A stretch of DNA of 64,000 nt, taken from positions 1 to 64,000 of the forward strand of contig NZ_JABAHY010000013.1 of NCBI RefSeq assembly GCF_012641515.1, in the 5' to 3' direction. Below the pieces are notes generated by a model. That model did not search any database. It saw nothing but the letters and a program-made list of their open reading frames with translations, and had not been told where the DNA came from. Each line of letters begins with the position of its first letter. Position 1 is the stretch's first letter. The position numbers and the translations under genes were made by a program. Source of the DNA: Nesterenkonia sedimenti (lineage in GTDB: Bacteria > Actinomycetota > Actinomycetes > Actinomycetales > Micrococcaceae). This document shows, one piece after another, positions 40,078 to 61,544 of the stretch.

Positions 40078-40347
40078 GTGGAGTTTGAGTTCGATCCAGC
40101 AAAGAGCCGAGCGAATTGGGAAAAGCATGGCATCGACTTCAGTGAGGCGCAGCGACTGTGGGAACTTCCCATCGTTGAGGTTCGTCTCAACTACCCATTA
40201 GAGGAGCGTTGGTTGGTAGTGGGGAAGCTGGACCAGAAGTACTGGACCGCTGTCGTGACGCATCGAGAGTCTCGAGTGAGGCTCATATCTGTCAGGCGAT
40301 CCCGAGCAGAGGAGAAGAAGCTTCATGAGCAAGCAGTCAGCAGTTGA
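40078..40347 (+). CDS. brnT: BrnT-family ribonuclease toxin
   Basis: 89 residues from GTG 40078. The start FEFDPAKSRANWEKHGIDFSEA is the BrnT signature. Downstream RESRVRLISVRRSRAEEKKLHEQ is the conserved basic tail with the Arg residues used for RNA cleavage in this RelE-like fold. BrnT blocks translation by cutting mRNA until BrnA neutralises it. It overlaps brnA by 23 bp. Base composition is lower in GC than the chromosome around it, which fits a mobile module at the edge of the defence island. Confidence 0.88.
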   Translation: MEFEFDPAKSRANWEKHGIDFSEAQRLWELPIVEVRLNYPLEERWLVVGKLDQKYWTAVVTHRESRVRLISVRRSRAEEKKLHEQAVSS

Positions 40348-40573
40348 GGAATTTGACCGGAAGTTCGACGCCGGAGAGGACATCTCCGATTACGTGGATT
40401 GGTCAACCGCACGCCGGGTAGATCCGGAGCCGAAGCGCGTGAACGTGGATTTTCCGCAGTGGATGGTGGATTCGCTGGACAATGAGGCAAAGCGCCTCGG
40501 CGTCACTCGCCAGTCTGTGATCAAAGTATGGATTGCTGACCGCCTGGAAGAACGACGTCGGAGCGCCGCGTAG
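40325..40573 (+). CDS. brnA: BrnA-like antitoxin
   Basis: 82 residues, ATG inside the brnT 3' end. The C-terminal ribbon-helix-helix (KRVNVDFPQWMVDSLDNEAKRLGVTRQSVIKVWIADRL, in sequence order) is the CopG/BrnA DNA-binding fold. The N-terminal SAVEEFDRKFDAGEDISDYVDWS wraps the toxin in known pairs. It represses the promoter through the palindrome at 40045-40059 by family analogy. Confidence 0.85.
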   Translation: MSKQSAVEEFDRKFDAGEDISDYVDWSTARRVDPEPKRVNVDFPQWMVDSLDNEAKRLGVTRQSVIKVWIADRLEERRRSAA

Positions 40574-41216: not shown

Positions 41217-43784
41217 CTAGTTCGTCCCCGAGGTTCGAAGGTGAGGGCCGATATAACCCACGTAGATTTTCCCTTCACTACTGCAGTCCAGATAATGCAG
41301 CCTCGGTGACTTGATGCCAATGGGATGCAGTCTGAAGTGGGCTTGCATATGCGCGTACCCAGATTCTGAGACCGTCCTAGGCACGGGCAGCAAACGCTCA
41401 TCGCCGTACTGGCTCATAGTGGTCTTGCTTTCACCAGCGGCGTGCCTCTTTGGCGAGACTGTCGTGTATTCGACTGAGGGACGGGTCTCCAGGTATGTCC
41501 TCATATCTCCCTGGAAGTCACCCTCTTTTTTCGCCCGCAGATAGTCGGCCAGCGTAAGCAGGCTCATCCATGCGGCTTGTACTGCTTGCCCCTGTGTATC
41601 GATCTCGTCGAGATCCGCGGTTAGGTCGTGATCTCCTGTGAAATACACACCAAGGGTCTCGAGCTCTGACATCATCTCAAGCAGCTCCCCAAAGTTGCCG
41701 GGAGCCTCATCCCTGGTGATAGAACTGTAGAGTTCGCTGTATGCAGCTTCACCTTCCCCGGCGTCAGCCAGCTGAGTTTGAAGCCACTGCACCTGCTTGC
41801 GGAGGTGCTGCGCGTCCTGCTCGACCTGAGCAATGTGCAAGACGCTGTCTCGTAAGTCATCGTGGGCGACATTCCGCTCTGCCTCTAAATTCGCAGCCCG
41901 TTTAGTATTCTCATGAAGGCGAACTTCAATCTCGGCTATTGCCTCCTCATTGGCCTCCACATAACGGTGAGCAAGGCTTTCCACGACGTCCTCTGAGAAG
42001 AGTTCAACTTCCAGCAGTTCCTTCAACACAGTGAGATGGCGAAGTTCATCTTGGGTGAAGCCGAACTCTTCATCTTCAGAATGTGCTGATTCGAGCCGCG
42101 CGAACTTCTGACGAGTCTCTTCGTTGCCTTGCGTCAGGCCCTGGAGTAGCCGTAGGTTCTCTGCCTCGGTGAAGGCAGATTGTGCTGCACGCACTTGGCG
42201 AGGTGCACCGCGCCGATTACCGATGCTGCGAGCTATGGTACTGAGCCGCCGGGCCACAGCCTCAGGTTCCAGCTGACTTAACCGCTCTGTTCCAAAGAAG
42301 CGGTGTCGGCGTGCATCGTTGGAATCGCCTAGATTGAGTGCGGGCTCGTAGGTTCTGATTGTCCACCGCCGAGGAGCAAAGCTTTCTCCCAAGCGCTCTT
42401 CCAATCGATCTGTCGCCTCAGGAGCCAGCACTACGAACTGCGCCAACCCCAAAGTCTTTCGCGCCCATTTCTCAGCCCGAGTCCGGAACTCCTCTTCAAT
42501 ACCGCTATCATCGGGAGCACTATCGGTCCCGGCCACGAATGCCGGCAATTGTCGGTTGGGGTCGACGAGGTACTCGTAGAGGCGATCAGCTGCCGCTGCA
42601 TCTTCGATGATGCGGAACTTGAGAGGTGAGTCAGACAGCGGACCTGGGGCCTCCAAGAGCTGCCGGACGAATCTCGGGGCCTGAGCAGGCTTGTCACCGT
42701 CGGACCAGATTTTGACCCACAGCCACGCTTCATCGGGCTCAAATCCGAACACGACATCTGTGTGGAAGTTCAGGTTCGGCTGCTTCTCCACCATTCGCAA
42801 TCGGTGAAAAGTGCTTCCGCTTGATTCCGTCGTCAGAGTGTCTGCGAAGCGGTCCTCCGATCGATGTGTGGCACTTTTGCCGAAGGTGAGGTCAGTTCTT
42901 TTCTCCTCAAGCCACTTGTTCATCACCTCAAGAACTTCAATACCAGCGGAAGCCGGGAAAGAGAGAAAAGTTCTGTAGGTAATAAACTCGTCCGCGTCCT
43001 TGGGCTTCACGCGTTCTTCACGGCGAGCCCGTCTAAAGACCGGCGTGCGGTAAGTGAGCCCGTCGCTGGGTCCACGTGAAGCGAGCAAGGCTGGCGTTGG
43101 AGCCCTGGGAGCAGTATCCCCAGCAGGAGGTGACTGCGTCCTTTCAGCCTGAGCCTGGCGTTTCTGCTCGAGTGCCCGATCCGCCTGTGCTCGGCGCTCT
43201 TCGATCAATGCTGGGTCATCAGGCAGTCCACGAAATGGGCGATCCCGGAATGACCGGAGCTTCTTCACTCCGGGGGTATCCGGCTGAGCCGCCGGGAGGT
43301 GATAAAGGAACAGGCTCACACGTCGAAGGACCGCTCGGCGAACATCTCGCTCCGAGGATTGTATGGCCTCATCAACATCCCGAAGCAGTTCGTTCAGCAG
43401 CTGATCAGAAGTCTTTTGTGGCTTCTTCGTTTTGTGAGGCGTGCTCTTACTTTGGTTGGACCGGTTAACGCGCTTCGAGCGGGGTGCAGTGCGAGGTGCA
43501 GACGGTTTCGGGGTGGCGTGCCGTTGCTCAGGACGCACGGGAGTAGGTTCGGGCCGCTTTTCTTCACGACGCTTTTTGGGGAGTTTCCCGTAGGGGTCGT
43601 TCGTGAACTTCTCGAAGAAGTTCCGCTCAGAGGCAGACAGCAACGGACCACTTGAACGTAGCGCTTCACGAGCCTTCGACGCAAGCTTGTCCGCCTCATC
43701 TCGTGTGCCGTTGACCTGCAGTGCCGACACCTTCTTGATTAGACCCGAGTAACGATCAACTCGGCGCACCATGCCATGTTTCAT
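41217..43784 (-). CDS. Unrecognised 855-residue coiled-coil protein, last gene of the defence operon
   Basis: ATG 43784 behind GAGAGGGG. In order: helical N-terminus (1-65), a very basic Pro/Lys/Arg-rich linker (about 70-130) suited to nucleic-acid contact, a helical segment with DQLLNELLRDVDEAI, a mixed alpha/beta core (about 265-560, with TYRTFLSFPASAGIEVL and WLWVKIWSDGD), a long coiled coil (about 580-690, with RLHENTKRAANLEAERN and VEQDAQHLRKQVQWLQ), and a small C-terminal domain ending KIYVGYIGPHL. That last motif resembles the end of RelE-like folds, but only as a pattern. GC content is near 50%, lower than most of the operon. It lies 54 bp after the DUF499 gene. It could be a specificity or structural subunit. 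Confidence 0.75.
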   Translation of the reverse strand: MKHGMVRRVDRYSGLIKKVSALQVNGTRDEADKLASKAREALRSSGPLLSASERNFFEKFTNDPYGKLPKKRREEKRPEPTPVRPEQRHATPKPSAPRTAPRSKRVNRSNQSKSTPHKTKKPQKTSDQLLNELLRDVDEAIQSSERDVRRAVLRRVSLFLYHLPAAQPDTPGVKKLRSFRDRPFRGLPDDPALIEERRAQADRALEQKRQAQAERTQSPPAGDTAPRAPTPALLASRGPSDGLTYRTPVFRRARREERVKPKDADEFITYRTFLSFPASAGIEVLEVMNKWLEEKRTDLTFGKSATHRSEDRFADTLTTESSGSTFHRLRMVEKQPNLNFHTDVVFGFEPDEAWLWVKIWSDGDKPAQAPRFVRQLLEAPGPLSDSPLKFRIIEDAAAADRLYEYLVDPNRQLPAFVAGTDSAPDDSGIEEEFRTRAEKWARKTLGLAQFVVLAPEATDRLEERLGESFAPRRWTIRTYEPALNLGDSNDARRHRFFGTERLSQLEPEAVARRLSTIARSIGNRRGAPRQVRAAQSAFTEAENLRLLQGLTQGNEETRQKFARLESAHSEDEEFGFTQDELRHLTVLKELLEVELFSEDVVESLAHRYVEANEEAIAEIEVRLHENTKRAANLEAERNVAHDDLRDSVLHIAQVEQDAQHLRKQVQWLQTQLADAGEGEAAYSELYSSITRDEAPGNFGELLEMMSELETLGVYFTGDHDLTADLDEIDTQGQAVQAAWMSLLTLADYLRAKKEGDFQGDMRTYLETRPSVEYTTVSPKRHAAGESKTTMSQYGDERLLPVPRTVSESGYAHMQAHFRLHPIGIKSPRLHYLDCSSEGKIYVGYIGPHLRTSGTN

Positions 43785-43838
43785 GTGGCGGCCCCTCTCA
43801 CCGACTGTTGCCCGTATCTGAACACATTTTGAGACCCC

Positions 43839-46800
43839 TCAGTGCTGTTCGAAGCCAGTGTTGTTGGGGTCGAATTTGAGGGTGCGAGCGTTCTCGCTGA
43901 TGGTTCGGACCTCGGACTCCTCGAAGCCAGCTTGCTTGCAAGCTTGAATGTCTATTGTGATCTCGAGTCCAGCCTCGGCGCCGGCCAGACGATCGATGAT
44001 TTCGCGAGTCACGTTGCTGATATCCCGTGCGTAGCGATCGGACGAGACTGTAACTGAACCGAAGAACCTGCGAGGTTTGGTATCTGTTTCGGGGGCTTTG
44101 ACTGCGAGAGATGGAGTCGCCTGTCCAGTGTCGACTCGGGATACGGCAGGCGTTTCAGTGGCGCCTGGAAGCTCATCAATGGTGCTTTGTAGGCGGTCAC
44201 CTTCAGCTTGACGTTGGGCACGCGAGTAGTCGACTAGAAGGGTGCTATCCGTGACCTGAATAGTGGAGCTATCACTCACTGGAGGAACAATTAGACCCTG
44301 GTATCGACCGGTATCAGGGTCTTTGCTTGTCGCAATAGCAAAGCGTTCACTATCTACGAGGATCGTACCGAGAGCCCGTTCGACAGCAGCGTCGAGAACT
44401 TCCCGACGCACCAATCGAGGCATGTAAATATAGCGAGTGAAATAGGCCCACAGTTCACCAACGGCCAGCTCAGCAGTTTGGTTCCAGATGTTTGACAACT
44501 CCTGGTGCAGCGTTGCTCCGAGGATCTCAGCGCCGAATTCGGTGACCAGGAGATCTTCACGGGCCAATTTCGCACTAACACGTTCGGACAGTGCACGCCC
44601 TCCGGAGTCGGGTACCCGGTCAGCGTTGGTCTCGAAGGGTCTGGTGGGGTCGTGCTGTTCCGGGTAGAGCGCCCACACGTAGGTTTCGCGGATCTTGTCG
44701 TTGACGGTCTGGTCCAGGTTGGTGACCTGCTCGGTAGCTTGCCGGTTCTGTTGGGCTGAGAGGTTCAAACCCTCGCTGCTGGCCTGGACCTTCTTCCACC
44801 CCAGGTACGTGCGAGTGACCGCTTCCAGGCCTTCGAGGTTGTTGGTGTCGGCCAGCAGGAAGACGAGGGTGTTGCGGTGGGTGCGCTGGCTGGCTCCTTT
44901 GGTCTCCACCGCGTTGCGGACCCACTGGTGGGCCTCTGAGTCTGCGCCGTCTTGTTTCCGTCGGGAGTAGCGGGGGTGGACGATGACCAGGCGGGTGTCC
45001 TCCAGGTCGGGGATGTCCGCGCTGGAGTCAGGGGCGATGTGTACCCGGTCGAAGTGCCCGCGGGTGCGTTCTTCTGCCCGGAGGCGGGCGGCGATTTCGT
45101 TCCACACGGTTTCCTCGTCTTCGCGCAGCCGCTCGGCGTAGTCCCGGGCGGTCTTGGCCACCGAGGGCTGGGTGTCGAACCAGTAGTGGCCCTGTTCTTC
45201 GTAGAAGTAGGTGGACCGCTGTGCCAGCTGGTCCAGGGCCGCCCCGAAATTGCCCAAAGTGTCGCCAGGGGCAGCGGTGCCCAGCCAGAGGTACTGCTTG
45301 TCCAGGCCTTTGCGTGTGCTCTTCACCCGGGGTGCGGCCCCCATGAAAATGGTGCGGGCCAGCCGCTGGGTGATGAACCGCTGCCCCAGGGTCGGGCGAG
45401 CCAGGTCAATCTGCTGGGCAGTGGAGGACGGGCCATCGATGTCAGAGTCAATGATCGGCTTCCACTGGTCCTCAAGGTACTGGGTCAGGTCGGTATTCAC
45501 CGTGGTGGTGTCCAGCGGGACATTGCCGGGCAGGATCAACGGTGAGGTGTCGTTGGACTTCCACAGTTCGTGCACGATGGATGAGACCAGCTTCAACACA
45601 CCACGAGTCCGTTGGAATCGCTCCAATGCAGACCAGTCCTCGTAGAGTCGATCCAGCAACTCAGGATGAATGGGATAAGAGGCACGAATACGCTTCTCGT
45701 ACTCATCATTCGGCGAAGCCGCCGCCCGCGGGAACAGTGCGGTGTTATTCCGGTACATAGTGGTGAAGGCCCGAGCAGTCGTGGCGATCTTCTTCAAACC
45801 CTCCCCGCCTACATCCTGAAACAGACGACGCCGCACAATCTCGAAAGACTCATCCTTGCTGGAGGGGCGCCACTGATCTGCCACCCGGCGGATCACATTC
45901 TGCAGCCGATCCAGAGCCATCTGGCCGTTGTTGCCGCCGACCTCGATATCAGCCCCAGCCCCTGCTGATCCGGTATCCGAGGCTGGAATGGAGACCACCA
46001 GCATGGCCCCGGGGATGGAGCGCACAATCTCAGTCAGCGACTGGGCGAAGGTGAACTGGGTCTCGAAGCTGCCGGCCGGCAGTACCTTGTCCCCCACCAG
46101 CTGCCGGGCGTAGGCGACCCACTCATCGATCAGGATCAGCGCCGGGCCATAGTGCTGCAGCAGGGTGCGCAGGGCCTCCCCAGGGTTGGTGCCAGCCTGA
46201 TCATGCTGGGCGATGATGTCATAGGCCTCCCGGCCACCGAGCTGCCAGGCCAACTCACCCCAGAGCGTGCGGACCTCGGTGCCGTCCTCCTTGACGGTGG
46301 GTGACCCGGCCTGGAGATAGGTGCCCACCAGTGCGACCCGCTTGACTCCCAGGCTGGTGAGGTCAGGCGAACCGACGGAGTCCACCAGGTCTTGGACTTC
46401 CTGAGGGAGCTTGTGCGCGGGAGTGCCGCTGAACAGGTGGTACAGCGCCAGCATGGAGTGGGTCTTGCCGCCGCCGAAGTTGGTCTGGAGGTTCACCACG
46501 GGGCTGGCGTTCTTATCGCCGCTGAGCCTGCGCACCGCCCGGGAAAGCAGGTCGTGGAGACCTTCGGTGAGGTAGGTGCGGGTGAAGAACTCCACCGGGT
46601 CCCCGTATTCGGGGCTGGTGGCTTCTCCGGTGCGGACCAGGTGCAGGTCGGCGGCGAACTCGCTGGCGGTGAATTCACCGCGGGCGACGTCGTCATGGGG
46701 CTGGATCACTTCACGCCAGGGCTGCAGCCCAGCCCCCGGATCTAGGGAGACCTGGGTCTTCTTCACCTGTTTGCGGGTTTGGTCTTCGAAGACCACACGT

Positions 46801-47222
46801 TGGAGATCATCGCGCAGCTTCTTGACGTCTTGTGCTGAGTCGACGGCGTCGGCCGCTGAAAGCAGCCGCACCATGGTGTCCAGGGCTCGGGCAGTGTCGT
46901 CGCCGGGGATGTTCTTCGCCTGCCCGTGGAAGAGGTCATTGCGCATGTCGCGCAGTTCCTGGGCGTAGCCCTGATGGGTACGGGAGAGCACGTCCTTGAA
47001 GTGGTAGCCCTGCTCGGTAATAGCCCGTAGCTGGACTTGGACGTCGTCCTTGGCGAACTCGAAGACGCGTCCGCCTTTGCGCTGGGCGATCTCCAGCGCC
47101 CACTTTGCCGGCCAGTCGGGACCGCCGAAGGCCTTGCTCATCACCTCATCGACCAGGTCATAGAGCCCCTCGGAGAGATGGTTGAAGCCTTTGAACAGGC
47201 GTTCTGCGTTGGTGATCGCCAT
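43839..47222 (-). CDS. DUF499 ATPase with N-terminal HEPN-like (Swt1-type) domain
   Basis: 1127 residues, ATG 47222 behind AGGGAA. Residues 1-135 form a helical domain with RNDLFH (Arg94-x4-His99), the catalytic signature of HEPN ribonucleases, in a Swt1-like setting. The ATPase part has Walker A NFGGGKTHSM (about 248-257) and Walker B ALILIDEW near 365. The C-terminal ~130 residues contain a small conserved alpha/beta unit (RRFFGSVTVSSDRYARDISNVTREI in two parts). DUF499 proteins occur in anti-phage islands next to DUF1156 methyltransferases. The 3' ~800 bp are clearly poorer in GC than the centre. The protein probably couples ATP use to sensing or RNA/DNA cleavage; this is inference. Confidence 0.85.
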   Translation of the reverse strand: MAITNAERLFKGFNHLSEGLYDLVDEVMSKAFGGPDWPAKWALEIAQRKGGRVFEFAKDDVQVQLRAITEQGYHFKDVLSRTHQGYAQELRDMRNDLFHGQAKNIPGDDTARALDTMVRLLSAADAVDSAQDVKKLRDDLQRVVFEDQTRKQVKKTQVSLDPGAGLQPWREVIQPHDDVARGEFTASEFAADLHLVRTGEATSPEYGDPVEFFTRTYLTEGLHDLLSRAVRRLSGDKNASPVVNLQTNFGGGKTHSMLALYHLFSGTPAHKLPQEVQDLVDSVGSPDLTSLGVKRVALVGTYLQAGSPTVKEDGTEVRTLWGELAWQLGGREAYDIIAQHDQAGTNPGEALRTLLQHYGPALILIDEWVAYARQLVGDKVLPAGSFETQFTFAQSLTEIVRSIPGAMLVVSIPASDTGSAGAGADIEVGGNNGQMALDRLQNVIRRVADQWRPSSKDESFEIVRRRLFQDVGGEGLKKIATTARAFTTMYRNNTALFPRAAASPNDEYEKRIRASYPIHPELLDRLYEDWSALERFQRTRGVLKLVSSIVHELWKSNDTSPLILPGNVPLDTTTVNTDLTQYLEDQWKPIIDSDIDGPSSTAQQIDLARPTLGQRFITQRLARTIFMGAAPRVKSTRKGLDKQYLWLGTAAPGDTLGNFGAALDQLAQRSTYFYEEQGHYWFDTQPSVAKTARDYAERLREDEETVWNEIAARLRAEERTRGHFDRVHIAPDSSADIPDLEDTRLVIVHPRYSRRKQDGADSEAHQWVRNAVETKGASQRTHRNTLVFLLADTNNLEGLEAVTRTYLGWKKVQASSEGLNLSAQQNRQATEQVTNLDQTVNDKIRETYVWALYPEQHDPTRPFETNADRVPDSGGRALSERVSAKLAREDLLVTEFGAEILGATLHQELSNIWNQTAELAVGELWAYFTRYIYMPRLVRREVLDAAVERALGTILVDSERFAIATSKDPDTGRYQGLIVPPVSDSSTIQVTDSTLLVDYSRAQRQAEGDRLQSTIDELPGATETPAVSRVDTGQATPSLAVKAPETDTKPRRFFGSVTVSSDRYARDISNVTREIIDRLAGAEAGLEITIDIQACKQAGFEESEVRTISENARTLKFDPNNTGFEQH

Positions 47223-47235
47223 AGTGGTTCCCTAC

Positions 47236-48309
47236 TTAGTCGTTGCTCTCATCGTGTGCGGTGGTGATCTGTGTACGAGCTAGGCGCTCTTGTGCTTGGT
47301 GATAGATCTGGGTGATCCGTTCCAGCAGCTCTTTCTTCGGAGGCAGCGCAGTCCAGTACTCGGCCACCATGATGCCGTCCTTGTGCAGTTCCAGGAGCTC
47401 GATCTGCTCTCGGCTGGCTTCAGTGCACAGGATCAGTCCCAAGGGTGTTTCTTCGCCCGGTTGACGTTCGTGCCGGTTCAGCCATTTGAGGTACAGGTCC
47501 ATCTGGCCCTTGTAGCTGGCTTTGAAGTGACCCAGCTTCAGCTCTACCGCGATCAGCCGTTTCAGCGGCCGAGAGAAGAAGAGGAGGTCGAGGTAAAAGT
47601 CGTCATTGCCGATGGGCATCCGCTTCTGCCGAGCAACGAACGCCCAGCCGTCTCCTGTTTCCAACAAGAAGCTCTGCATGTCCCGGGCAATGGCATCCTC
47701 GAGATCCTGCTCCGCATAGGCGTCTGGGAGTCCGAGGAAGTCCAGAAAGTAGGGATCGCGGAATGTGTCTGCGGGGACGACAGCGCTTCCGACGGTCTGT
47801 ACGTTGGCGATCTCTTTGCGCTCGTACCCCTGGCGGCCGATGAGGTCTCGCAGAGCGCGAACGCTGAGTCTCCCGGAGATTGCCTGTTGGGCATAGAAAT
47901 CGCGAGCTTGCGTGCTGGGCACTGCGATGAGAACGGTGAAATGGGTCCAGCTCAATTGTCGCCCCATTGATGCGACAATCTCGGGGTCGGGGTACACCTG
48001 CGAGAACTGGAGCATCCGATAGAGGTTCGCCCTCGTAAACCCGCGGCCGAACTTGTCTGTCAATTGTCGTGCCAGTGATGCGACAATCTCTTGATCGTAG
48101 CCCGCACGATTCTCGTGGAGGAGCTCGACGTCGATCAGCCGCCCGATGTGCCAGTGCATAAGAGTCAGGTGGAGGTTCGCCTGAGTAGCGACGGCACTGC
48201 GGGTCTGGTCAATGAGCGTGGAGACACGATCAAACAGCGTGCCGTCAAGGCTCTGAGCTGCCTCTACTGCATTCTGCAGCGGCGTCAGCTCTGTGTTCTC
48301 TCCGCTCAT
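47236..48309 (-). CDS. YhcG-type PDDEXK nuclease (DUF1016)
   Basis: 357 residues. The N-terminal DUF1016 helical/winged domain (NLHLTLMHWHIGRLI, RGFTRANLYRMLQFSQVYP, RQLSWTHFTVL) is followed by the nuclease core: YLDLLFFSRPL supplies the Asp and IAVELKLG the Glu-x-Lys of the PD-(D/E)xK centre; GLILCTEASREQIELL follows as in YhcG. YhcG proteins often sit inside restriction-modification loci, where a DNA-cutting role is suspected. Here it lies 6 bp after the methyltransferase and 13 bp before the DUF499 gene, firmly inside the operon. Two 30-bp repeats lie within the DUF1016 part. Confidence 0.88.
   Translation of the reverse strand: MSGENTELTPLQNAVEAAQSLDGTLFDRVSTLIDQTRSAVATQANLHLTLMHWHIGRLIDVELLHENRAGYDQEIVASLARQLTDKFGRGFTRANLYRMLQFSQVYPDPEIVASMGRQLSWTHFTVLIAVPSTQARDFYAQQAISGRLSVRALRDLIGRQGYERKEIANVQTVGSAVVPADTFRDPYFLDFLGLPDAYAEQDLEDAIARDMQSFLLETGDGWAFVARQKRMPIGNDDFYLDLLFFSRPLKRLIAVELKLGHFKASYKGQMDLYLKWLNRHERQPGEETPLGLILCTEASREQIELLELHKDGIMVAEYWTALPPKKELLERITQIYHQAQERLARTQITTAHDESND
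47953..47982. repeat. 30-bp repeat with internal hairpin, copy 1
   Basis: Matches 48061-48090 at 27 of 30 positions, same frame. Each copy contains ATTGTCG/CGACAAT arms, so each can form a hairpin. It encodes EIVASMGRQL on the minus strand. Confidence 0.8.
48061..48090. repeat. 30-bp repeat with internal hairpin, copy 2
   Basis: Partner of 47953-47982, 108 bp away, encoding EIVASLARQL. The two decapeptides sit 36 residues apart in the DUF1016 domain. Confidence 0.8.
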
Positions 48310-48315
48310 GACATA

Positions 48316-51150
48316 TCAATCCTCGTCGAAGTCGAAGGTTGGCTGCGAAGATGTGGGGCGCTGGGCTTCCAGACGCTGGGCCTGCTCAGTGACGTCGCCC
48401 CAGGAGCTGACCAGCCCGTTGAAGAGGATCGCGTCCTGGGTGTGATTCTTCTTCTCTGCCTCATGGAACAGCCAGAAGCCCAGTTCTTTGACCGCATCCA
48501 GGCTGAGACCGGCTTCGCTGACGTTAACCAACCTCTCCGCTACCTTGTCGGAGCCGTCTTTGGCCAGTGTGGCGGCCAGCCGCACGGTGGCTTCCCAGAC
48601 GCTGATGCGGTCATCGGTGGTGGCATCCCATTCACCTTCAAGTTCTGAGGGTGGCAGCAGGCGGGCCTTACCGCCCTTGGCTTCGAAGATGCCGCCGCGC
48701 TCCAGGGCCCCAATGTTGGTGTCTGAGGAGCGGGCGAGCTGGTCGGCCACGCCGGAACTCTCCCGTGTCCAGCCGTACTGCCGGTACCACTTCACCGCGA
48801 ACCGAGTATCGGGGTCGAAGTCCGACTCATGGTCCCCGATAACCTCATCGAGGGTGGCGTTGATCAGTTGCAACGCGTCCTTCACACTCATATCGGAGCC
48901 ATCAGCCTCGCGGACTCGTGAGTACCGGGAGAACACCGAGATTCCGGGGCCGATGGCGGCCTGTGCGAGGTCGACCGGTGCGATGGTGCCTTGAATCAGG
49001 GTGCGAAGGGCACTCGGGAGTTCGGCTTTCAGAGCACCGACGAATGCTCGCCGCGTAGTGCTCGGCGCACCCGCGGGTCGCGGGCGACAGGCCAAGACGA
49101 TTGAAGATGCCAGGGCATTCGCGTTGGAGCCGATCAGACGCCCTGTCATTTCCGTGCGCATAGGCCAGGTTGCTGTTATCTCCCAGCCTGAATCGATGAG
49201 CCCGTCCAACAGTGTGTGCCATCCTGTCGAGGAAGTGCCAGCATCGCGAGTGTCCTGCTGTTTATATGCGTAATAGACAGTGAGTGGAACATCTAAGTTG
49301 GCGCCGTGGCGAATGCGCGTAAAGACCTGATTGAACCCATCGATGAAGAACTCCTCTGCGCCAGCTCTACCGCCATGCCGGTAAGGGTTAGCGACCAGTT
49401 CCTCAGATTTTGGACTGAGCATGGTGCCGACAGTTTTGGAGTGGATCTCGAGGAGCGTGTGGCGAAGCCACACGTAAAAGAAATCTGATAGGTCGGAATA
49501 CCCAATGTTGTCGTAGTAGGGAGGGTCCGTAGAGACGACCACCCCGGGGTAATCTCGAGTCGAAGCGTCAGCTTGATCAATTTGGCTGGAACATTGAGCG
49601 GGAAGCCGATCTATAGCATCGGCCATGGCTGAAATCTGTGTAATGAAGCCGCCGGAGCGACCTGAGAAAACATTCGCTTCAGCGTAGTCCCAGACCATTG
49701 GAATGGCCTGACGGGAGAAAACGTTCCTAATTTTCTGTAGGCTGCTGTCCCATCCGCAAATTGAGGATGAAGAATTCGCTTCTCGACTTACCGCAAGCGC
49801 CATGTAAGTCGCGATAGCGTCTGCGTAGGCTTCGGCTTCAGTGCCGCCGTTCTCCAGGCGTTCGCCATGGTCCAGGCCAGCCGCGAGTGCGTCGTTCAGT
49901 GCGCGTTCCCGAGCCTCCTGCACGAGGTCGCTGAACGTAGTCAGCGCCACCAGCTGTCGATTTGTGAAGAGATCAGGCCATCTCGTCATGCCGTAGCGAT
50001 AGACGTTGATCCGCCCGGGCCAATCGAAAATTTCGCCATCTGGGACGTCAACGGGGGCAGGGACTTCTGCCACATTCTGTTGGTCGGTGGACGGAGAAAT
50101 ATAGAGACGGCCGCGGTTCCCTTCAGCCACGACAGCCATAAGCTGTGCTCCCATACGCCCAGCGCGGGATTCTGACCGAATGTAGTTGTAGTCAATCGGT
50201 GTGCCATCTGCAATCGATGTGGCACCTTTCCTCCCGATCGTTCCATCCGCATCGCCCTTTGGCCCCTCGGCGTCGTGTCTGACCTCGTAGCGAACCTGGC
50301 CATCTACGACCTTGGCGTCGATCCAAGCTTCCTTGCCCTTCTTTTTGCCGAGCCACCAGGAACGGACGAGGGGGACTTCAATGGGGTTCGCAGGGTTGGG
50401 ACTCTTCACGGTGCGGGCCCAGATCCAAGCAATCACGGTGTGCTCGGTACCGTCCGGGTGCTTCACCTTGGGATAAAGGTGACCGATGCGGCGCTGGGCT
50501 TCATCGCGCATCCACTGACCGTAGTAACGCACATCCTCGGCCAGCCCTTCGGCTCGCCGGTAGGAGCTTGACTCCTTATCCGGTGAGCCGGGGTGGATGG
50601 GCTGTTGGTCGGCAAACTTCGGGGGAATCTCGATGAGCGCCTTGTTGATCAGCACCGCCAGAGGGTTGAGATCACTGGCGTGTGCTTCCAACCCCAGGCG
50701 CTGCGCCTCCAGAGGGATGGCCCCGCCCCCGGCGAAGGGGTCCAGAACCGCGGGCAGTTCACCGTTGTTGGATTTGCGGATCTCCTCCCGCGCCTGTGCC
50801 AGCAGCTTCTCATCGTTGCTGTTCTCCCAGACCACCAGTTTCTCCATCAGCTCATGGAGTCGAGCGCGCTCGGCGTCCTGGGCTTCCTCAGTGGGGAACT
50901 CCTCAGGCCGGGCGGAGGGGTCATCGACCAGCTGGGCGAAGAGCACCGCGCGTGCTGCAGAAATCGGTCGTCGGGCCCAGTAGAGATGCACCATTAACGG
51001 GAGACCCTTGCGGATCGATTTCTTCTCTCGGGCCGCAGCGAAATTGATTGCCTCCAGAGGCAGCGAGACCTCGATGAGTTTCTTCTTCGGCGTGGTCGTC
51101 ACGTTCCTGCCTTCGTTGCTGGTGTGCTGGTCTGTTGGGGAGGTGGTCAC
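48316..51150 (-). CDS. DUF1156-type DNA methyltransferase
   Basis: 944 residues from GTG 51150, which overlaps the helicase TGA (GTGA). The N-terminal DUF1156 region (KKLIEVSLPLEAINFAAAREKKS in two parts, HLYWARRPISAARAVLFAQLVDDP) precedes the SAM-binding motif VLDPFAGGGAIPLEA near 137. The catalytic motif TDPPYYDNIGY (DPPY at 542-545) indicates an amino-methyltransferase acting on adenine N6 or cytosine N4. About 400 residues separate the two motifs, ample for a target-recognition region. The middle of the gene (about 49.0-50.3 kb) is near 50% GC while both ends are near 70%, as if that region had been exchanged. It probably marks host DNA so that the helicase/nuclease arm spares it. Confidence 0.88.
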   Translation of the reverse strand: MTTSPTDQHTSNEGRNVTTTPKKKLIEVSLPLEAINFAAAREKKSIRKGLPLMVHLYWARRPISAARAVLFAQLVDDPSARPEEFPTEEAQDAERARLHELMEKLVVWENSNDEKLLAQAREEIRKSNNGELPAVLDPFAGGGAIPLEAQRLGLEAHASDLNPLAVLINKALIEIPPKFADQQPIHPGSPDKESSSYRRAEGLAEDVRYYGQWMRDEAQRRIGHLYPKVKHPDGTEHTVIAWIWARTVKSPNPANPIEVPLVRSWWLGKKKGKEAWIDAKVVDGQVRYEVRHDAEGPKGDADGTIGRKGATSIADGTPIDYNYIRSESRAGRMGAQLMAVVAEGNRGRLYISPSTDQQNVAEVPAPVDVPDGEIFDWPGRINVYRYGMTRWPDLFTNRQLVALTTFSDLVQEARERALNDALAAGLDHGERLENGGTEAEAYADAIATYMALAVSREANSSSSICGWDSSLQKIRNVFSRQAIPMVWDYAEANVFSGRSGGFITQISAMADAIDRLPAQCSSQIDQADASTRDYPGVVVSTDPPYYDNIGYSDLSDFFYVWLRHTLLEIHSKTVGTMLSPKSEELVANPYRHGGRAGAEEFFIDGFNQVFTRIRHGANLDVPLTVYYAYKQQDTRDAGTSSTGWHTLLDGLIDSGWEITATWPMRTEMTGRLIGSNANALASSIVLACRPRPAGAPSTTRRAFVGALKAELPSALRTLIQGTIAPVDLAQAAIGPGISVFSRYSRVREADGSDMSVKDALQLINATLDEVIGDHESDFDPDTRFAVKWYRQYGWTRESSGVADQLARSSDTNIGALERGGIFEAKGGKARLLPPSELEGEWDATTDDRISVWEATVRLAATLAKDGSDKVAERLVNVSEAGLSLDAVKELGFWLFHEAEKKNHTQDAILFNGLVSSWGDVTEQAQRLEAQRPTSSQPTFDFDED

Positions 51151-54100
51151 TGTGGTGGTCCTCCCTTGGTCCAATAATCCTGCCACTCCTCGTTGATTGA
51201 ACGAGTGGTCGCCGCAGGCTCGAAGTGGTTGAAGGCGTCCAGTACATAGCGGAGCCTGTCATGTTGGGGACCGTCAGCGGAGACCTCCACCAGCGCTAGT
51301 CGGTGGCGCTCACCCTGGGTCTGGGCGAACGTGACCTCGTTGGCCGTGATCGTGAAAGTGTCTGAACCTTGGATGCGGCCTTTGACCTCGATGTAGTGGA
51401 CCCGACCACTGGCATCGGTGGAGCGGATGTCGTAGCCGGGGTTGTTCCGGGCCATCTCCTCCGGGTGTCTTCCCAGTGCGCGTTCTGCTGCCATAACGGC
51501 CTCGACAGCACGACGTTCGACCTCTTCGGTGTGGCGGGCGAAGGTCTGCGCCTCTCCTGAGTGCGCTGCAGCAATGACGTTACTGGGGACGATGAGTGCC
51601 GAGCCGCGGATCACCGCAGGTGCGGCAACCAGATGAGTGGCGGCGTCGAGCTCTTCAAGGCGCCTGTTAAGCCGGTCCTCCAGGTCTTGTGCTCGCTTGC
51701 GTGCCGTCTCGGCACGAATTCGCCCGATGTTGCCGTCACGTTCCTGGGTTTCGAGTCGCATGGATTCGCGGTCCCAGTAGTTGATCTCTGCCAGGAGCCT
51801 CTGGTTGACCTGCTCACGGGTGCGCGCAGTCTCGGCTTCCACTCGGATACGCAGCTCTTCCATTCGCGGCTGCAGGCCCTCACGGTAAGCCCAGGAACGG
51901 ATGGTCTTCTCATGGTTCTGTCGCATCCAATCGTTGCCCATGATCTGCGTGATTTGGTGCTGTTCGGCGTCGTCGGGCCTGTCGAAGTCCAGGTATGGCG
52001 GTGCTGAAGGAACCGTCACCGTACCGTCCTGCTCCAGGACGGGGTAGTCGAAATGGTGCGAGACCGGGCGCGAATCAGTGGCGGGCTGCTCGATGCGCTG
52101 CTCCACACTGAACATCAGTGCCGGTGCCGCAGCCTGGTTGGAGCGGCGGTCCACCAGAACAGTGCCCTGTCTGAGGACCTCGCCCAGGTCCTCAATAGTG
52201 GCCTCAATGGCTGCTTGAAGCAGCGGGTGTCCGGGGGCGATCAGCGCAGCCTGTTGCTGGCCCTCCGGATGAACGGCTGCCTGTTCGAAGGTGACCCGTT
52301 CGTACTTCTCGGCCACCGGCGCCCAGCGGTTGAGCCGACGCGCAGTATCGACAACTCGTTGAGGAACTTGGGTGATCTGGTACCGGTGCTGTTCCCGTCT
52401 GCGGATACGGCCACCCAGGCGGGTGAAGGCGGACATGAAAAACGCAGCGATGTACCCCGGCTGAAGACGCCGCTCACGGGCCTTCTCCATGCGAGCACGC
52501 ACTTCCTCCAGATCTATGGAGCTGAACATCTCTGCGTGCAGTGCCCGTTCCGCGACCATCTCTTCGAGGCCGTGGGCCACGCTGGTATCAATGATGCGTT
52601 CCAGCTGGGCCTTGGTCTCAGGCTGATCTCCATACCGGACGGCCTGGATCAGCAGGTCGCGCAGTGACTGTTCCTGGAATGCGTCTGACTCCCCGAGTAC
52701 GTTGAAGAGGTTGCCGTTGTACGCCTTGTCCATCTCAGCGATCTTGGTCAGAAGTCGGGCAAAGACGTCACCTTCGCGGGTGTCTTTGGCGACCATGTTC
52801 CACAGGTGACAAACCTCTCTCTGGCCAATTCGGTGGATGCGCCCGAAGCGCTGTTCGATCCTGTTGGGATTCCACGGCAGGTCATAGTTGACCATCAGAT
52901 GGGCTCGCTGCAGGTTCAGTCCCTCACCGGCGGCGTCGGTGGCAAGCAGCACCACAGCATCAGGGTTGTGAGTGAAGTGCTCCCGGGCAGCTTTGCGTTC
53001 CTCCCGGGGTGTTCCACCGTGGATGGTCAGGACTGCATCGGCCCGGCCGAGTTGTGCGGCGATTTTCTGGCGTAGGTAGTCCAAGGTGTCGCGGTGCTCG
53101 GTGAAGATGATGATCTTGCGGGCCTTGCCGGAGTCATTGTGGACCAACAGTTGCTCATCCAGGATGGCGCGCAGCTCTACCCATTTCTTGTCCTCGTCCT
53201 GGTGGCGGACCCGGCGTGCAGTGCGAATCAGATCTTCGAGGATGCTGATCTCTGCGCGCAACTCAGGAATGGTCTGGGCTGCGGTGGCGAGGTCGACCAC
53301 TTGGTCCATCTGTTCTTCGAACTCAGCGCGCTCCTCCTCGGTGGCTTCCTCATCGAGGTCTTCGAAGTCTTCAACGGAGAAGGACGGCAACTGATGGCTG
53401 GGTGTCGGTGGCGGGTAGGAGCGGCCAGTCTCGTGGAGTCGCTGCATCTCGCGCAGTCGGTCTTCAAGCCGGTGTTGGCGGCGTTCCAATGACTTCAGGA
53501 TCGCCTCGGGGCTCGATGCCAACCGCCTCTGAAGCACGGTGAGGGCGAATCCCACATTGTTGCCACGTTTCTTGTCGCCCTCTTGGGCGATCCGTTCAGC
53601 CCGGCCCATTTCAGTACGCACATAGTCGGTGACCTCTTCGTAGAGCTCCCGCTCGGCGTCGCTGAGGTCATAGTGGACTGTATAGGCACGGCGTTCGGGA
53701 AAGAGAGACTTGCCTTCGAAGGTCAGCAGGTCCTCTTTGACCATGCGACGCATAAGTCCATCAGTATTGGTGCGGTGAATCCCGTGTCGGAACTTGCCGG
53801 CGAACCTGTCACGGTCCAGCAGTGACATGAAAAGCTGAAAGTCCTCTTCCTTGCCGGCGTGGGGAGTCGCGGTCATCAGCAGGAAGTTGTGTGCGGTCTC
53901 AGAGAGCAGCTTGCCGAGTTTGAAGCGTTTGGTCTCCTCAACATCACCTGCCCAGGAAGAGTAGTGGGCTGACATTCGGTGTGCCTCGTCCACGATCGCC
54001 ACATCCCAGGAGACCTCGCCAAGCTGTTCGCGCAGATCCTCGTTGCGGGAGACCTGATCCATACGGACGATCAGATACGGGTGCTCGGCGAAGACATTGC

Positions 54101-54680
54101 GGCCATGTGCTGCATCGACCATGTGGCGATTGAAGACCTCGAAGTGCAGATCGAACTTCTGGGAGAGCTCCTCCCGCCATTGCTCCACCAGGCCACCGGG
54201 GGCGACCACGATCGCCCGTTCACAGTCCGACCGCAAGATCAGTTCCTTCAAGTACAAGCCGGCCATGATGGTCTTCCCTGCACCGGGATCATCAGCCAGC
54301 AGGAATCGCAGCGGAACCCGGGGCAGCAGCTCCTCATAGACTGCGCGGATCTGGTGGGGCAGAGGGTCAACGTCAGAGCTGTTGACTGCGGCCATCGGGT
54401 CATAGAGCGCGGCATACTTGATGCGCAGCGCCTCAGCGGCGAGACGGAATTCGTCTGGATCGGCGTCAAATGCTGGCGCGGTGTCCGGATCCGCTACTGC
54501 TTCAAGCTGTTCGGCTTCCTCCGGAGTGATGGCACGTTCGCCGCGGTTACCGTCGTCGTCCTTGTAGAAAATCTCCACGAGGGAGTCGTCGATGTGCTCG
54601 AGGCCGATCAGGGTCACACTCTTGCCAGGCATCAAGCCGCGAATCCGCTGACCCGGACGTAACGCGTCAAGGCCCATCAT
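51147..54680 (-). CDS. SNF2-type helicase with C-terminal DUF3883-like region, first gene of the defence operon
   Basis: 1177 residues, ATG 54680 behind GGGGAGG (a second ATG follows directly). Superfamily 2 motifs: Walker A ADDPGAGKTIMAGLYLKEL near 130, VDEAH near 231, LLMTATPHAGKEEDF, and in RecA domain 2 FTEHRDTLDYL, LLATDAAGEGLNLQRA and RFGRIHRIGQ, a RapA-like SNF2 set. Coiled coil around 410-470 and 930-980. The C-terminal NPGYDI...YIEVKGR near 1085-1105 fits the DUF3883 (PDDEXK-like) domain. It would translocate along DNA and remodel or help cleave unmodified DNA. The 160 bp upstream (54681-54840) contain the promoter region and no gene. Confidence 0.9.
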   Translation of the reverse strand: MMGLDALRPGQRIRGLMPGKSVTLIGLEHIDDSLVEIFYKDDDGNRGERAITPEEAEQLEAVADPDTAPAFDADPDEFRLAAEALRIKYAALYDPMAAVNSSDVDPLPHQIRAVYEELLPRVPLRFLLADDPGAGKTIMAGLYLKELILRSDCERAIVVAPGGLVEQWREELSQKFDLHFEVFNRHMVDAAHGRNVFAEHPYLIVRMDQVSRNEDLREQLGEVSWDVAIVDEAHRMSAHYSSWAGDVEETKRFKLGKLLSETAHNFLLMTATPHAGKEEDFQLFMSLLDRDRFAGKFRHGIHRTNTDGLMRRMVKEDLLTFEGKSLFPERRAYTVHYDLSDAERELYEEVTDYVRTEMGRAERIAQEGDKKRGNNVGFALTVLQRRLASSPEAILKSLERRQHRLEDRLREMQRLHETGRSYPPPTPSHQLPSFSVEDFEDLDEEATEEERAEFEEQMDQVVDLATAAQTIPELRAEISILEDLIRTARRVRHQDEDKKWVELRAILDEQLLVHNDSGKARKIIIFTEHRDTLDYLRQKIAAQLGRADAVLTIHGGTPREERKAAREHFTHNPDAVVLLATDAAGEGLNLQRAHLMVNYDLPWNPNRIEQRFGRIHRIGQREVCHLWNMVAKDTREGDVFARLLTKIAEMDKAYNGNLFNVLGESDAFQEQSLRDLLIQAVRYGDQPETKAQLERIIDTSVAHGLEEMVAERALHAEMFSSIDLEEVRARMEKARERRLQPGYIAAFFMSAFTRLGGRIRRREQHRYQITQVPQRVVDTARRLNRWAPVAEKYERVTFEQAAVHPEGQQQAALIAPGHPLLQAAIEATIEDLGEVLRQGTVLVDRRSNQAAAPALMFSVEQRIEQPATDSRPVSHHFDYPVLEQDGTVTVPSAPPYLDFDRPDDAEQHQITQIMGNDWMRQNHEKTIRSWAYREGLQPRMEELRIRVEAETARTREQVNQRLLAEINYWDRESMRLETQERDGNIGRIRAETARKRAQDLEDRLNRRLEELDAATHLVAAPAVIRGSALIVPSNVIAAAHSGEAQTFARHTEEVERRAVEAVMAAERALGRHPEEMARNNPGYDIRSTDASGRVHYIEVKGRIQGSDTFTITANEVTFAQTQGERHRLALVEVSADGPQHDRLRYVLDAFNHFEPAATTRSINEEWQDYWTKGGPPQ

Positions 54681-54840: not shown

Positions 54841-55266
54841 TCAGTCCTGGGCGACCTTGACCTCGACATCGATGTTGCCGCGGGTGGCCTTGGAGTAGGG
54901 GCAGAAGTCGTGAGCCTTCTTGGCCAGCTCCTCCGCCTGTGCCTTCTCCAGGTTCGGCAGGACGACCTCAATGGTGGCTGCCAGGCCGAAGCCGCCGTCG
55001 TCGTCGGCCCCGATGCCGACCTTGACACCGATAGAAGCATCAGTGGTGTCATAGTCATCACCGGCGACCTTCTTCATTGCGCCCAGGAAGCAGGCAGCCC
55101 ACCCGGTGGCGAACAGCTGCTCGGGGTTCAGACCCTCACCGGAGCCGCCGAGCTCCTTCGGCGGAGCCAGGGTCACATCCAGTGCCCCATCCTTAGTCTT
55201 GGCCTGTCCCTCGCGGCCGCCGCCGGTGGCCAGAGCCTCCGCGGTGTACTTCACGTCTACTGCCAT
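54841..55266 (-). CDS. ohr: Organic hydroperoxide resistance protein (Ohr/OsmC family)
   Basis: 141 residues from ATG 55266 (GAGAGGAG 7 nt upstream). Thiol peroxidase reducing organic peroxides. The peroxidatic Cys is in GWAACFLGAM and the resolving Cys in DFCPYSKATRGN, the Ohr arrangement. VKYTAEALATGGGREG is typical of the N-terminus of Ohr. Cytoplasmic dimer by family. Monocistronic, separating the defence operon from galK. It marks the return to ordinary chromosome composition. Confidence 0.93.
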   Translation of the reverse strand: MAVDVKYTAEALATGGGREGQAKTKDGALDVTLAPPKELGGSGEGLNPEQLFATGWAACFLGAMKKVAGDDYDTTDASIGVKVGIGADDDGGFGLAATIEVVLPNLEKAQAEELAKKAHDFCPYSKATRGNIDVEVKVAQD

Positions 55267-55369
55267 GATGATGCTCCTCTCAGTCGGTTCCACCTATAGC
55301 CCACCATAGGTTTAGCGCACTGGCTAGGGGTGATCATTCAGCTGTGCGCACAGCACCGGCTGAGAGTGG

Positions 55370-55375
55370 CAGAAT
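55370..55375 (+). promoter_or_regulatory. Candidate -10 element, leaderless galK start
   Basis: CAGAAT preceded by GG and followed 8 nt later by the ATG at 55384, the same pattern as at 4675. No Shine-Dalgarno is visible. Confidence 0.3.
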
Positions 55376-55383
55376 TGGGGCCT

Positions 55384-56715
55384 ATGCGTGACAACTGCGC
55401 CCGCTGGCTGGGCCCCGGGGACCCCGAATCGCTATCCGCAGCATTGGCCACCCGGTTTACCCAGGTGTTTGAGCGGGAAGCTGAGGGGGTGTGGTTCGCC
55501 CCGGGACGGGCGAACCTCAACGGCGAACATATCGACTTCCACGGCGGCCGCTGTCTGCCCATGGCCCTGCGCCACGGCACCTATGTGGCGGCTGCTGCCC
55601 GTGAGGACGGGCTGCTTCGGGTCCGGACCCTGGACTCCCAGCTGGATTCCGGCATCATCGAAATCCACGACGACGCCGGCTCCCCTGCCGAGGCCAACTT
55701 CCCCTCCTGGACCACCTATGTCTGGGGTGTGCTGCAGTCCCTGCGGGAATGTGACCCCGAATATGACGAACTCCATCTGCGCTCCGGTTTCGGCGCTGAT
55801 GTGCTGATCCGTTCAACCCTGCCCATCGGTGCGGGGCTCTCCTCCTCGGCCTCCCTGGAATGTGCGGTTGCCCTGGCTCTTGTGGGCACCGGCTCGCCCC
55901 TGGGCGAGGAGCACGGCGGGGAGGACTTCACCCGGGCGCTGACTGATGAGCTGCGCGCCGTTCTGGCGCAGGTGTGCATCCGGGCGGAGACCGAGTACGT
56001 GGGCGCCGGCACCGGCGGGTTGGACCAGACTGCCTCCCTGCGTGGCGCTGCGGGGAAACTGGTCTCCCTGGACTGCCGGGACTTCACAGTAAAGCGCAGC
56101 GATATCTCCTTCCTGCTGCGCGACTACCGGTTCATCGCCGTGGAGACCGGCCAGCCCCATGAGCTGGCCGATGGTCGCTTCGCCGCCCGAAGGGCTGAGT
56201 CCGAGGCCGCTGCGGCACTCCTCGGCGTGAAGCAGCTGCGTGAGGCTCTCCCGGAGAAGCCGAAGAAACCCAATGTGGAACTGACCTTGGAGGAGTTCGA
56301 CCGCCTCGTGGATGAAGGCGGCGATCTCGGTGGTCACGATGCCGGCGCCTGCCGCCGGCGGCTGAAACATGCGCTGACCGAGATGCTGCGCAGCGAGAAG
56401 ATCCACAAACTCCTCTTCGGCGAGGCCCACGGCGTGGACGATACAGCCGAGATGATCGGTGACCTCATGGCCGGCGGGCACACCTCAATGCGCGACTACG
56501 CCGAGGTCAGCTTCGAGGTGGCCGACCGAATGGTGGAGACAGCGCTCTCAGCAGGTGCCACTGGTGCCCGACTGATCGGTGGCGGCTTCGGCGGCAGTGT
56601 GCTGCTGCTGGTGCGGAAGAACCGCGTGGATGCAGTCACCGCGGCGCTGACCAAGCTCTCCGAGCAGCTGCGTTTCCTCGACGCCGTGCCCTCGGCCCCA
56701 GCCCGAGCAGTCTGA
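55384..56715 (+). CDS. galK: Galactokinase
   Basis: 443 residues from ATG 55384. GHMP kinase phosphorylating galactose to galactose-1-phosphate in the Leloir pathway. The galactokinase signature appears as PGRANLNGEHIDFHGGRCLP (usual form GEHTDYNGG, so two substitutions in the sugar-binding loop). The ATP loop is IGAGLSSSASLE, and the third GHMP motif ARLIGGGFGGSVLLLV. A 30-residue insertion near 290-325 makes it longer than E. coli GalK (382). The altered sugar loop allows for a related sugar substrate. galE is at 16840, but no galT is in the window. Confidence 0.87.
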   Translation: MRDNCARWLGPGDPESLSAALATRFTQVFEREAEGVWFAPGRANLNGEHIDFHGGRCLPMALRHGTYVAAAAREDGLLRVRTLDSQLDSGIIEIHDDAGSPAEANFPSWTTYVWGVLQSLRECDPEYDELHLRSGFGADVLIRSTLPIGAGLSSSASLECAVALALVGTGSPLGEEHGGEDFTRALTDELRAVLAQVCIRAETEYVGAGTGGLDQTASLRGAAGKLVSLDCRDFTVKRSDISFLLRDYRFIAVETGQPHELADGRFAARRAESEAAAALLGVKQLREALPEKPKKPNVELTLEEFDRLVDEGGDLGGHDAGACRRRLKHALTEMLRSEKIHKLLFGEAHGVDDTAEMIGDLMAGGHTSMRDYAEVSFEVADRMVETALSAGATGARLIGGGFGGSVLLLVRKNRVDAVTAALTKLSEQLRFLDAVPSAPARAV

Positions 56716-56733
56716 CTGGGCCGACTGGACTGC

Positions 56734-59188: not shown

Positions 59189-59209
59189 CGATATGCTCCT
59201 GCGGGGTAC

Positions 59210-60349: not shown

Positions 60350-60371
60350 GCCTCCAGACTAGAGGCAGTGA

Positions 60372-61505: not shown

Positions 61506-61530
61506 AACCAGCCCGGAGCCAACATCATTC

Positions 61531-61544
61531 CTTCAAATTTGAAG
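61531..61544. promoter_or_regulatory. Perfect palindrome CTTCAAATTTGAAG before the demethylase operon
   Basis: Contains the same TTCAAATTTGAA as at 27178-27189. On the minus strand AATGAT follows within a few bases and may be a -10, giving the same arrangement as at the pirin gene. Confidence 0.6.

Follow-up and report, generated by a model that had tools for sequence, protein, structure and literature searches.

The 64,000-nucleotide stretch of Nesterenkonia sedimenti DNA analyzed here (contig NZ_JABAHY010000013.1, positions 1 to 64,000; hereafter, the window) carries a five-gene operon that encodes, in the order of transcription, the helicase HmaA, the DNA methyltransferase HmaB, a YhcG-type nuclease, the ATPase HmaC, and an 855-amino acid (aa) protein. 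In our assessment, this operon is probably an Hma system, that is, a restriction-modification-like, type-1 DUF499-centred BREX-related (BR) system, built as a mosaic, with YhcG as an auxiliary component and the 855-aa protein as cargo. Behind this reading stand the observed gene content, conservation, mosaicism, and content of the slot located 3' of HmaC; what merits follow-up is the apparent exchange of HmaB, together with the 3' slot. The initial annotation of the locus as a modification-type defence operon, with YhcG and an unrecognized protein as additions, stands with regard to both the type and the additions, but the core had already been named.

The Hma core

On the strength of profile matches, the three large genes are assigned to Hma, a system named in PMC8565338 and treated as a DUF499-centred BR system in PMC12839542. 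Matches to PADLOC models were obtained for HmaA (PDLC00659, 1344.5 bits, residues 1–1172 of 1177), HmaB (PDLC00660, 1094.8 bits, residues 33–941 of 956), and HmaC (PDLC00662, 883.6 bits, residues 166–1120 of 1127). The Pfam matches, SNF2/Helicase_C and NOV_C (DUF3883-like) in HmaA, DUF1156 in HmaB, and HEPN_Swt1 and DUF499 in HmaC, agree with the domains read initially from the sequence (SNF2 with a DUF3883-like domain, DUF1156, YhcG PD-(D/E)XK, HEPN/DUF499, and an unrecognized 855-residue protein). HmaA contains the motifs GAGKT (position 133), DEAH (231), and, in the C-terminus, IEVK; HmaB contains DPPY (554); and HmaC contains RNDLFH (94–99), with R94, N95, and H99 invariant across five aligned sequences. 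The DPPY motif fits an amino-methyltransferase; the PADLOC model labels HmaB a DNA-adenine methylase, and the label in PMC8565338 is m5C.

As in Hma, the HmaA, HmaB, and HmaC genes are adjacent on one strand, with yhcG between HmaB and HmaC, and the operon encodes the ATPase, methyltransferase, and helicase of which type-1 BR consists (PMC12839542), in the form of a DUF499 ATPase, a DUF1156 methyltransferase, and an SNF2 helicase with a C-terminal PD-(D/E)XK nuclease. The hallmarks of type-2 BR (a standalone DUF3780 protein and an N-terminal HKD nuclease on the helicase) had no Pfam match among the five proteins, and PglZ, the mark of type-3 BR and BREX, was not among the matches listed for them (PADLOC, Pfam, and NCBIfam). 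The lack of DUF3780, initially considered an oddity, is the rule for type 1, given that this protein marks type 2 (PMC12839542). Neither does the presumed rarity of three nuclease centres in one operon hold: the HEPN-ATPase fusion is reported in 1370 taxa and the helicase-nuclease fusion in 1921 taxa for type-1 BR (PMC12839542), so that both are norms of this type and only YhcG is an extra recognized nuclease centre. Some BR loci contain other nucleases nearby or inside (PMC12839542). Thus, the operon resembles Hma and type-1 BR in combining the helicase-nuclease, the DUF1156 methyltransferase, and the HEPN-fused DUF499 ATPase, with neither DUF3780 nor PglZ matched, but differs in the addition of YhcG between HmaB and HmaC and of the 855-aa gene 3' of HmaC. 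The HmaA translocase-nuclease, the C-terminal part of HmaB, and the HEPN-ATPase HmaC would form a constant scaffold that probably scans DNA and destroys DNA without the host mark.

Proposed exchange of the HmaB body

Loci related to that in the window were collected with an HmaC alignment (80 of 317 loci kept, some pieces incomplete); in 71 of the 80, HmaB is seen upstream of HmaC on the piece. Across the 28 pairs formed by eight YhcG-containing cassettes, protein sequence identity is 93.3–97.8% for HmaA, 86.1–98.6% for HmaC (over the available part only in the case of L076), and 61.7–96.2% for YhcG, compared with 63.9–81.8% for HmaB. Similarly, the 15 pairs formed by six loci without YhcG (five from Microbacteriaceae and one unassigned) show 92.9–96.8% identity for HmaA and 92.8–97.0% for HmaC, compared with 58.3–76.5% for HmaB. 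The divergence maps to residues ~100–700 of HmaB (hereafter, the body); in the eight YhcG cassettes, the bins from residue 700 on are 0.86–0.98 identical. The same mosaic is apparent in the DNA: in all six pairs profiled, identity falls within HmaB to a lowest bin of 49–55% and is restored before HmaC (L101 carries an extra insert before HmaB). Beyond HmaC, the DNA is near-identical for another 1–2 kb in L069/L099, L067/L080, and L068/L087 but unrelated in L069/L071, L067/L102, and L101/L113.

Across 20 loci (the window included and L076 excluded), identity in the HmaB body is negatively correlated with that in the HmaC core (r = −0.40) and in HmaA (r = −0.23), whereas the HmaB C-terminus follows both (r = +0.77 and +0.69, respectively). 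Distant cassettes can share closer bodies than near-identical ones: in L066/L067, the body identity is 0.72 with an HmaC core identity of 0.87, compared with 0.59 and 0.98, respectively, in L067/L080. The divergence of the body, combined with the conservation of the C-terminus, suggests that HmaB is an exchangeable specificity module. In BREX and type I systems, the methyltransferase (PglX) or specificity unit (HsdS) varies and the remainder is constant. Hma would resemble these systems in this respect but differ in exchanging the HmaB body while conserving the C-terminal part.

HmaB is predicted, from the DPPY motif and the published reading, to methylate adenines at its own motif, and its body, apparently comprising the methyltransferase and a target-recognition insert, would be exchanged between cassettes with no matching change in HmaA or HmaC. 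Given that only the HmaB body changes, HmaB would, on the simplest interpretation, direct the attack too, most likely setting mark and target alike, as HsdS or PglX does. In the published work covered, target choice by Hma and BR systems is inferred rather than tested, and the natural HmaB swaps in near-identical cassettes provide ready pairs for asking whether a single methyltransferase governs the specificity of modification and restriction alike. The apparent HmaB exchange is new here: our literature search, with bioRxiv preprints outside its reach, found no report of it, and the words swap, recombination, and mosaic have 0 occurrences in PMC12839542.

HmaC includes a variable segment as well, at residues ~951–1050 (mean identity 0.57 and 0.36 in two bins, compared with 0.70–0.92 in the other HmaC bins), which is probably the hypervariable C-terminal region described in PMC12839542. 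This tail follows the HmaC core (r = 0.81). No co-variation of the tail with the HmaB body was seen once the HmaC core was accounted for (partial r = 0.06; 662 of 2000 permutations reached this value). As a separate observation, in L058 (2728–7087), HmaB is split in two by ~1.5 kb with a 484-aa open reading frame (ORF), judged by eye to be possibly a transposase.

YhcG, the 3' slot, and the 855-aa protein

The third gene encodes DUF1016_N (PF17761) and YhcG_C (PF06250) domains, the combination that characterizes the PADLOC phage-defence candidate PDC-S02 (PDLC04822, 375.7 bits), with VELK at position 255. The PDC-S02 match covers most of the gene; the difference is that, here, the nuclease lies inside a recurrent four-gene cassette. 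Of the 71 loci, 14 have YhcG between HmaB and HmaC, 12 of these proteins being 49–68% identical to the window YhcG and two (L083 and L088) ~30%; in L088 and L107, YhcG is also present between HmaA and HmaB. In L076, the yhcG frame is irregular and HmaC stops at the contig end; HmaB of L082 is only a 141-aa fragment. In the tree of HmaC, which holds only relatives of the window protein, the window and 12 YhcG loci fall within a clade of 24, in which unresolved forks make YhcG gains and losses uncountable. The hosts of the YhcG cassette come from at least four families (Micrococcaceae, Brevibacteriaceae, Propionibacteriaceae, and Actinomycetaceae) along with unassigned genomes, and eight hosts with end branches of at most 0.032 on the HmaC tree indicate transfer of the cassette. 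YhcG and HmaC distances are correlated (r = 0.64, 13 loci; 14 of 2000 permutations as high). By these comparisons, YhcG is a travelling nuclease gene and a recurrent, not random, partner of Hma; the protein would act as an auxiliary PD-(D/E)XK effector travelling with the scaffold.

Other genes occur at the junctions of Hma loci. In L108 and L135, mutually alike inserts of ~9.2 kb between HmaB and HmaC contain five ORFs each that, by eye only, resemble CRISPR type III-like genes. In L117, L127, L137, and L140, a recurring pair, an ATPase-like ORF of ~470 aa and an ORF of ~210 aa, is located between HmaA and HmaB and is possibly Septu, which is reported to be embedded in Hma (PMC12255303).

Past HmaC, the first ORF of at least 90 aa to start within 250 bp is on the same strand in 35 of the 80 loci. 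Among 19 of these slot genes, picked by hand, PADLOC models were matched by 15 (9 of 9 and 6 of 10 in two batches), the models being Shedu, Hachiman HamA, Thoeris-type TIR, PDC-S19 (L070 and L114), Lamassu LmuA, Gabija-type GajA (L084, L088, and L102), PifA, MzaB (L100 and L103), HEC-05, PDC-S18, and TmtA, although several of the matches are partial and do not imply complete systems. The slot genes of L073, L083, L119, and L139 had no PADLOC match, and six of the remaining 16 genes (L069, L080, L099, L085, L101, and L087) look like copies of scanned ones. In a control set of 10 genes from positions 609–32846 of the window, one matched, weakly (ShosT, 25.2 bits). Because the slot is filled elsewhere by other defence genes, the 855-aa protein most likely provides a second line of defence of its own, co-transcribed with Hma. 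The slot offers a route to defence genes by position, with a candidate in the window.

The 855-aa protein had no Pfam or NCBIfam match. Its PADLOC matches are partial: residues 367–523 align with only 157 of the 553 positions of HEC-07 (63.4 bits), which the eight scanned relatives partly match as well, and residues 731–853 align with only ~100 of the 316 positions of NsnC. HEC stands for Hma-embedded candidate (PMC12111858 and PMC12988326); a literature search on Nsn names gave only unrelated papers among the matches listed, and one on HEC-07, NsnC, and PADLOC found none. The protein belongs to a defence-island family that these matches suggest to be distantly HEC-07/NsnC-like, with the difference that the profiles are covered only in part and the protein has an additional basic N-terminus of 261 residues. 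This extension, unseen in the eight relatives aligned at full length, had no plasmid match; residues 1–262 include 61 K+R compared with 32 D+E. After its N-terminal part, the protein would comprise a coiled coil and a C-terminal domain.

The C-terminal domain, in which E, R, H, R, D, and H are among the positions invariant in 19 family sequences (the window protein included), may be a RelE-type RNase. We give this assignment somewhat less than an even chance and treat it as a lead. It comes from a low-confidence model built from four sequences (pTM 0.69, mean pLDDT 62.4, residues 71–125 below 50), for which the best VIA match has Z 5.8 and a root-mean-square deviation of 3.1 over 84 aligned residues of an 87-residue target. 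VIA applied to the best 150 Foldseek chains yielded 27 entries, of which 25 are toxin-antitoxin-type (for example, YoeB, RelE, ParE2, and HigB; one, HP0894, is titled hypothetical protein) at Z 5.8 to 3.5, a range below 8 that may reflect a common arrangement; the other two are Txp40 and HslU. The best Foldseek E-value was 0.46. Two residues, an Arg on a late strand and a His close to the C-terminus, are reminiscent of R65 and H83 of YoeB. Alignment of the domain with hhalign against the single Escherichia coli sequences of YoeB, YafQ, RelE, and HigB gave no match, and no RelE-type Pfam family was listed up to E = 10 for 19 family members. A model of the core (residues 262–855, four sequences) was poor (mean pLDDT 54.7, pTM 0.33) and was set aside together with its Foldseek matches (best E = 0.0034 to a COXG-type chain, then START and others). 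Searches of PDB sequences with the family, with best E-values of 0.04 and 0.007, returned for the most part coiled coils, AcrIIC3, and short matches to unrelated proteins.

The relatives recovered for this protein are ORFs of ~420–743 aa. Within the order, 10 of 149 genomes encode a family member; the 11 HmaC-positive genomes include two of these ten (the window genome and G102) but not the other eight. Three of 27 HmaC-positive genomes, several of these with distant HmaC, carry a member (G000, G102, and G434), in each case within 10 kb of Hma, and the family is present at two of the 80 Hma loci (L070 and L077), besides G102 and G434. The arrangement relative to Hma is convergent 3' in L077, divergent 5' in L070 and G434, and upstream on the same strand in G102, the examined stretches of which yielded no HmaA. 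Neighbours elsewhere include BrxL, GmrSD, and a DrmD-like helicase (L164), type I methyltransferase genes (L162 and L168), a type IV-type restriction helicase (L077), and a large PDC-S37-type protein (L163); in the distant loci L070 (1–3227) and L164 (9023–12657), a GmrSD-type (DUF262) gene follows after ~20 and ~50 bp, respectively. A clear defence neighbour is lacking in L008 (housekeeping genes), L161 (a helicase with partial matches), L165–L167, and the plasmid loci L004–L007, the last two sets judged without a profile scan. Overall, this is often, but not always, a defence-island gene, and its link to Hma is repeated, not fixed. Phage records had no match for the L077 homologue, two single-protein viral scans were empty, and a genome-contig scan with the 855-aa protein as the lone query gave no relative; one relative was found on a viral contig (L171). 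In L170 (3116–13700), HmaC and HmaB are present, with no HmaA in the stretches examined, and a DNA cytosine methyltransferase-like ORF and a family member are located upstream.

Several alternatives to an Hma mosaic with an auxiliary nuclease and cargo have to be weighed. A distinct new system, an obligate five-subunit machine with YhcG and the 855-aa protein as integral parts, could explain the tight one-strand spacing, with gaps of at most 54 bp, but is highly improbable: none of the 80 other Hma loci, some on incomplete pieces, shows all five genes, for which reason a new five-gene system was rejected and the notion that the five always travel together fails. Moreover, Hma loci commonly do without YhcG (in 40 of 71, no more than 60 bp separates HmaB from HmaC), the 855-aa gene has the lowest GC content of the five (0.568 compared with 0.584–0.616), and its relatives exist without Hma. 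At the other extreme, YhcG and the 855-aa gene might be functionally unlinked, random defence-island neighbours, as the location in a variable region and the adjoining BrnT toxin and CopG-type antitoxin genes would allow; we consider this unlikely, given the fixed position of YhcG in the 14 loci and its distances tracking those of HmaC, although this counter-evidence concerns YhcG and not the 855-aa gene. Of the two outcomes that were to undermine the initial annotation, random neighbours or an already named five-gene set, neither applies as such: the three-gene core is named, the extras are not random (YhcG recurs, and the 855-aa family is a repeated neighbour), and the five are no unit. Finally, the divergence of HmaB could reflect fast evolution under phage pressure with no module exchange, in line with the statement that target-recognition domains diverge fast (PMC12839542), but the negative correlation of the body with the other parts of the system and the closer bodies of distant cassettes make this a poor prospect.

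The preferred reading of a mosaic Hma system with YhcG and cargo faces objections of its own. The biochemical activities of all the operon proteins, the transcription of the genes as one unit, a part for HmaB in restriction specificity, and what the 855-aa protein does are inferred. YhcG is missing from 11 of the 24 loci in the HmaC clade of the window and from 23 of the 38 in the wider clade, and is thus optional; the variable tail of HmaC could also set specificity; the slot genes were hand-picked, with controls from one window alone; and none of the other family members found near Hma (L077, L070, G434, and G102) occupies the same-strand position immediately after HmaC, so that the place of the 855-aa gene here may reflect island clustering. 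A more far-reaching version, which we put forward tentatively and find rather doubtful, casts Hma as a platform with two exchange sites, the HmaB body, which alone would program self-marking and attack, and a 3' socket for Shedu, Hachiman, Gabija, TIR types, and others, occupied here by a new coiled-coil protein ending in a RelE/YoeB-fold RNase as a fourth nuclease layer.

Operon layout and genomic setting

All five ORFs are present on the minus strand with the limits initially given, in a co-directional cluster of ~13 kb (Table 1). HmaA and HmaB overlap by 40 bp, and the subsequent gaps are 6 bp (HmaB to YhcG), 13 bp (YhcG to HmaC), and 54 bp (HmaC to the 855-aa gene). The composition of the operon is mildly unusual: its GC content is 0.598, compared with 0.634 for positions 1–36000 and 55001–64000 of the window together, and is 0.608 in HmaA, 0.597 in HmaB, 0.584 in YhcG, 0.616 in HmaC, and 0.568 in the 855-aa gene.

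Table 1 Positions of the operon genes and their parts in the window
Feature	Position	Strand	Basis
HmaA, SNF2-family helicase with C-terminal PD-(D/E)XK (NOV_C)	51147..54680	-	PADLOC PDLC00659, Pfam, motifs
Predicted NOV_C nuclease domain of HmaA, IEVK motif	51264..51521	-	Pfam PF13020, residues 1054-1139
HmaB, predicted DUF1156 amino-methyltransferase, DPPY motif	48316..51186	-	PADLOC PDLC00660
Approximate exchangeable HmaB body, residues ~100-700	49087..50889	-	Identity profiles and DNA mosaics; limits by eye, 50-residue bins
YhcG/DUF1016 PD-(D/E)XK nuclease (PADLOC PDC-S02)	47236..48309	-	PF17761, PF06250, PDLC04822
HmaC, Swt1-like HEPN fused to DUF499 AAA+ ATPase	43839..47222	-	PADLOC PDLC00662, PF18731, PF04465
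HEPN domain of HmaC, RX4H motif (RNDLFH)	46854..47192	-	PF18731, residues 11-123
Variable C-terminal segment of HmaC, residues ~951-1050	44073..44372	-	Mean identity 0.57 and 0.36 in two bins
855-aa protein, putative 3' cargo gene	41217..43784	-	ORF, partial PADLOC matches, alignment
Basic N-terminal extension of the 855-aa protein, residues 1-261	43002..43784	-	Alignments with 8 full-length relatives
C-terminal domain of the 855-aa protein, possible RelE/YoeB fold	41217..41723	-	Low-confidence model

Searched with an HmaC profile at E = 1e-30, the order yielded 11 positive genomes out of 149, eight with near full-length matches; at E = 1e-60, the phylum and the family yielded 17 and 5, respectively, out of 178 genomes each; with the window HmaC as the query, the only match among 30 genomes of the genus was N. 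sedimenti itself. A variable genomic position, a point that the initial annotation suggested checking, is indicated by comparison with nine congeneric stretches (from 27 other genomes, with GalK as the marker). In eight of these, relatives of the pirin-like gene and of OsmC (or GalK in L180, which lacks OsmC) are 0.2–5.6 kb apart, and the ninth (L172) begins at a contig end ~1 kb from OsmC; in the window, the pirin-like gene (25905–27131, judged by eye) and the OsmC gene are ~27.7 kb apart (27132–54840), which places the operon within a variable region of ~27.1–54.8 kb. TRAP and TTT transporters are also encoded in this region, and the space that separates the operon from the TctA/SDR genes holds, at 40078–40573 on the plus strand, a gene for the ribonuclease toxin BrnT and, after it, one for a CopG-type antitoxin.

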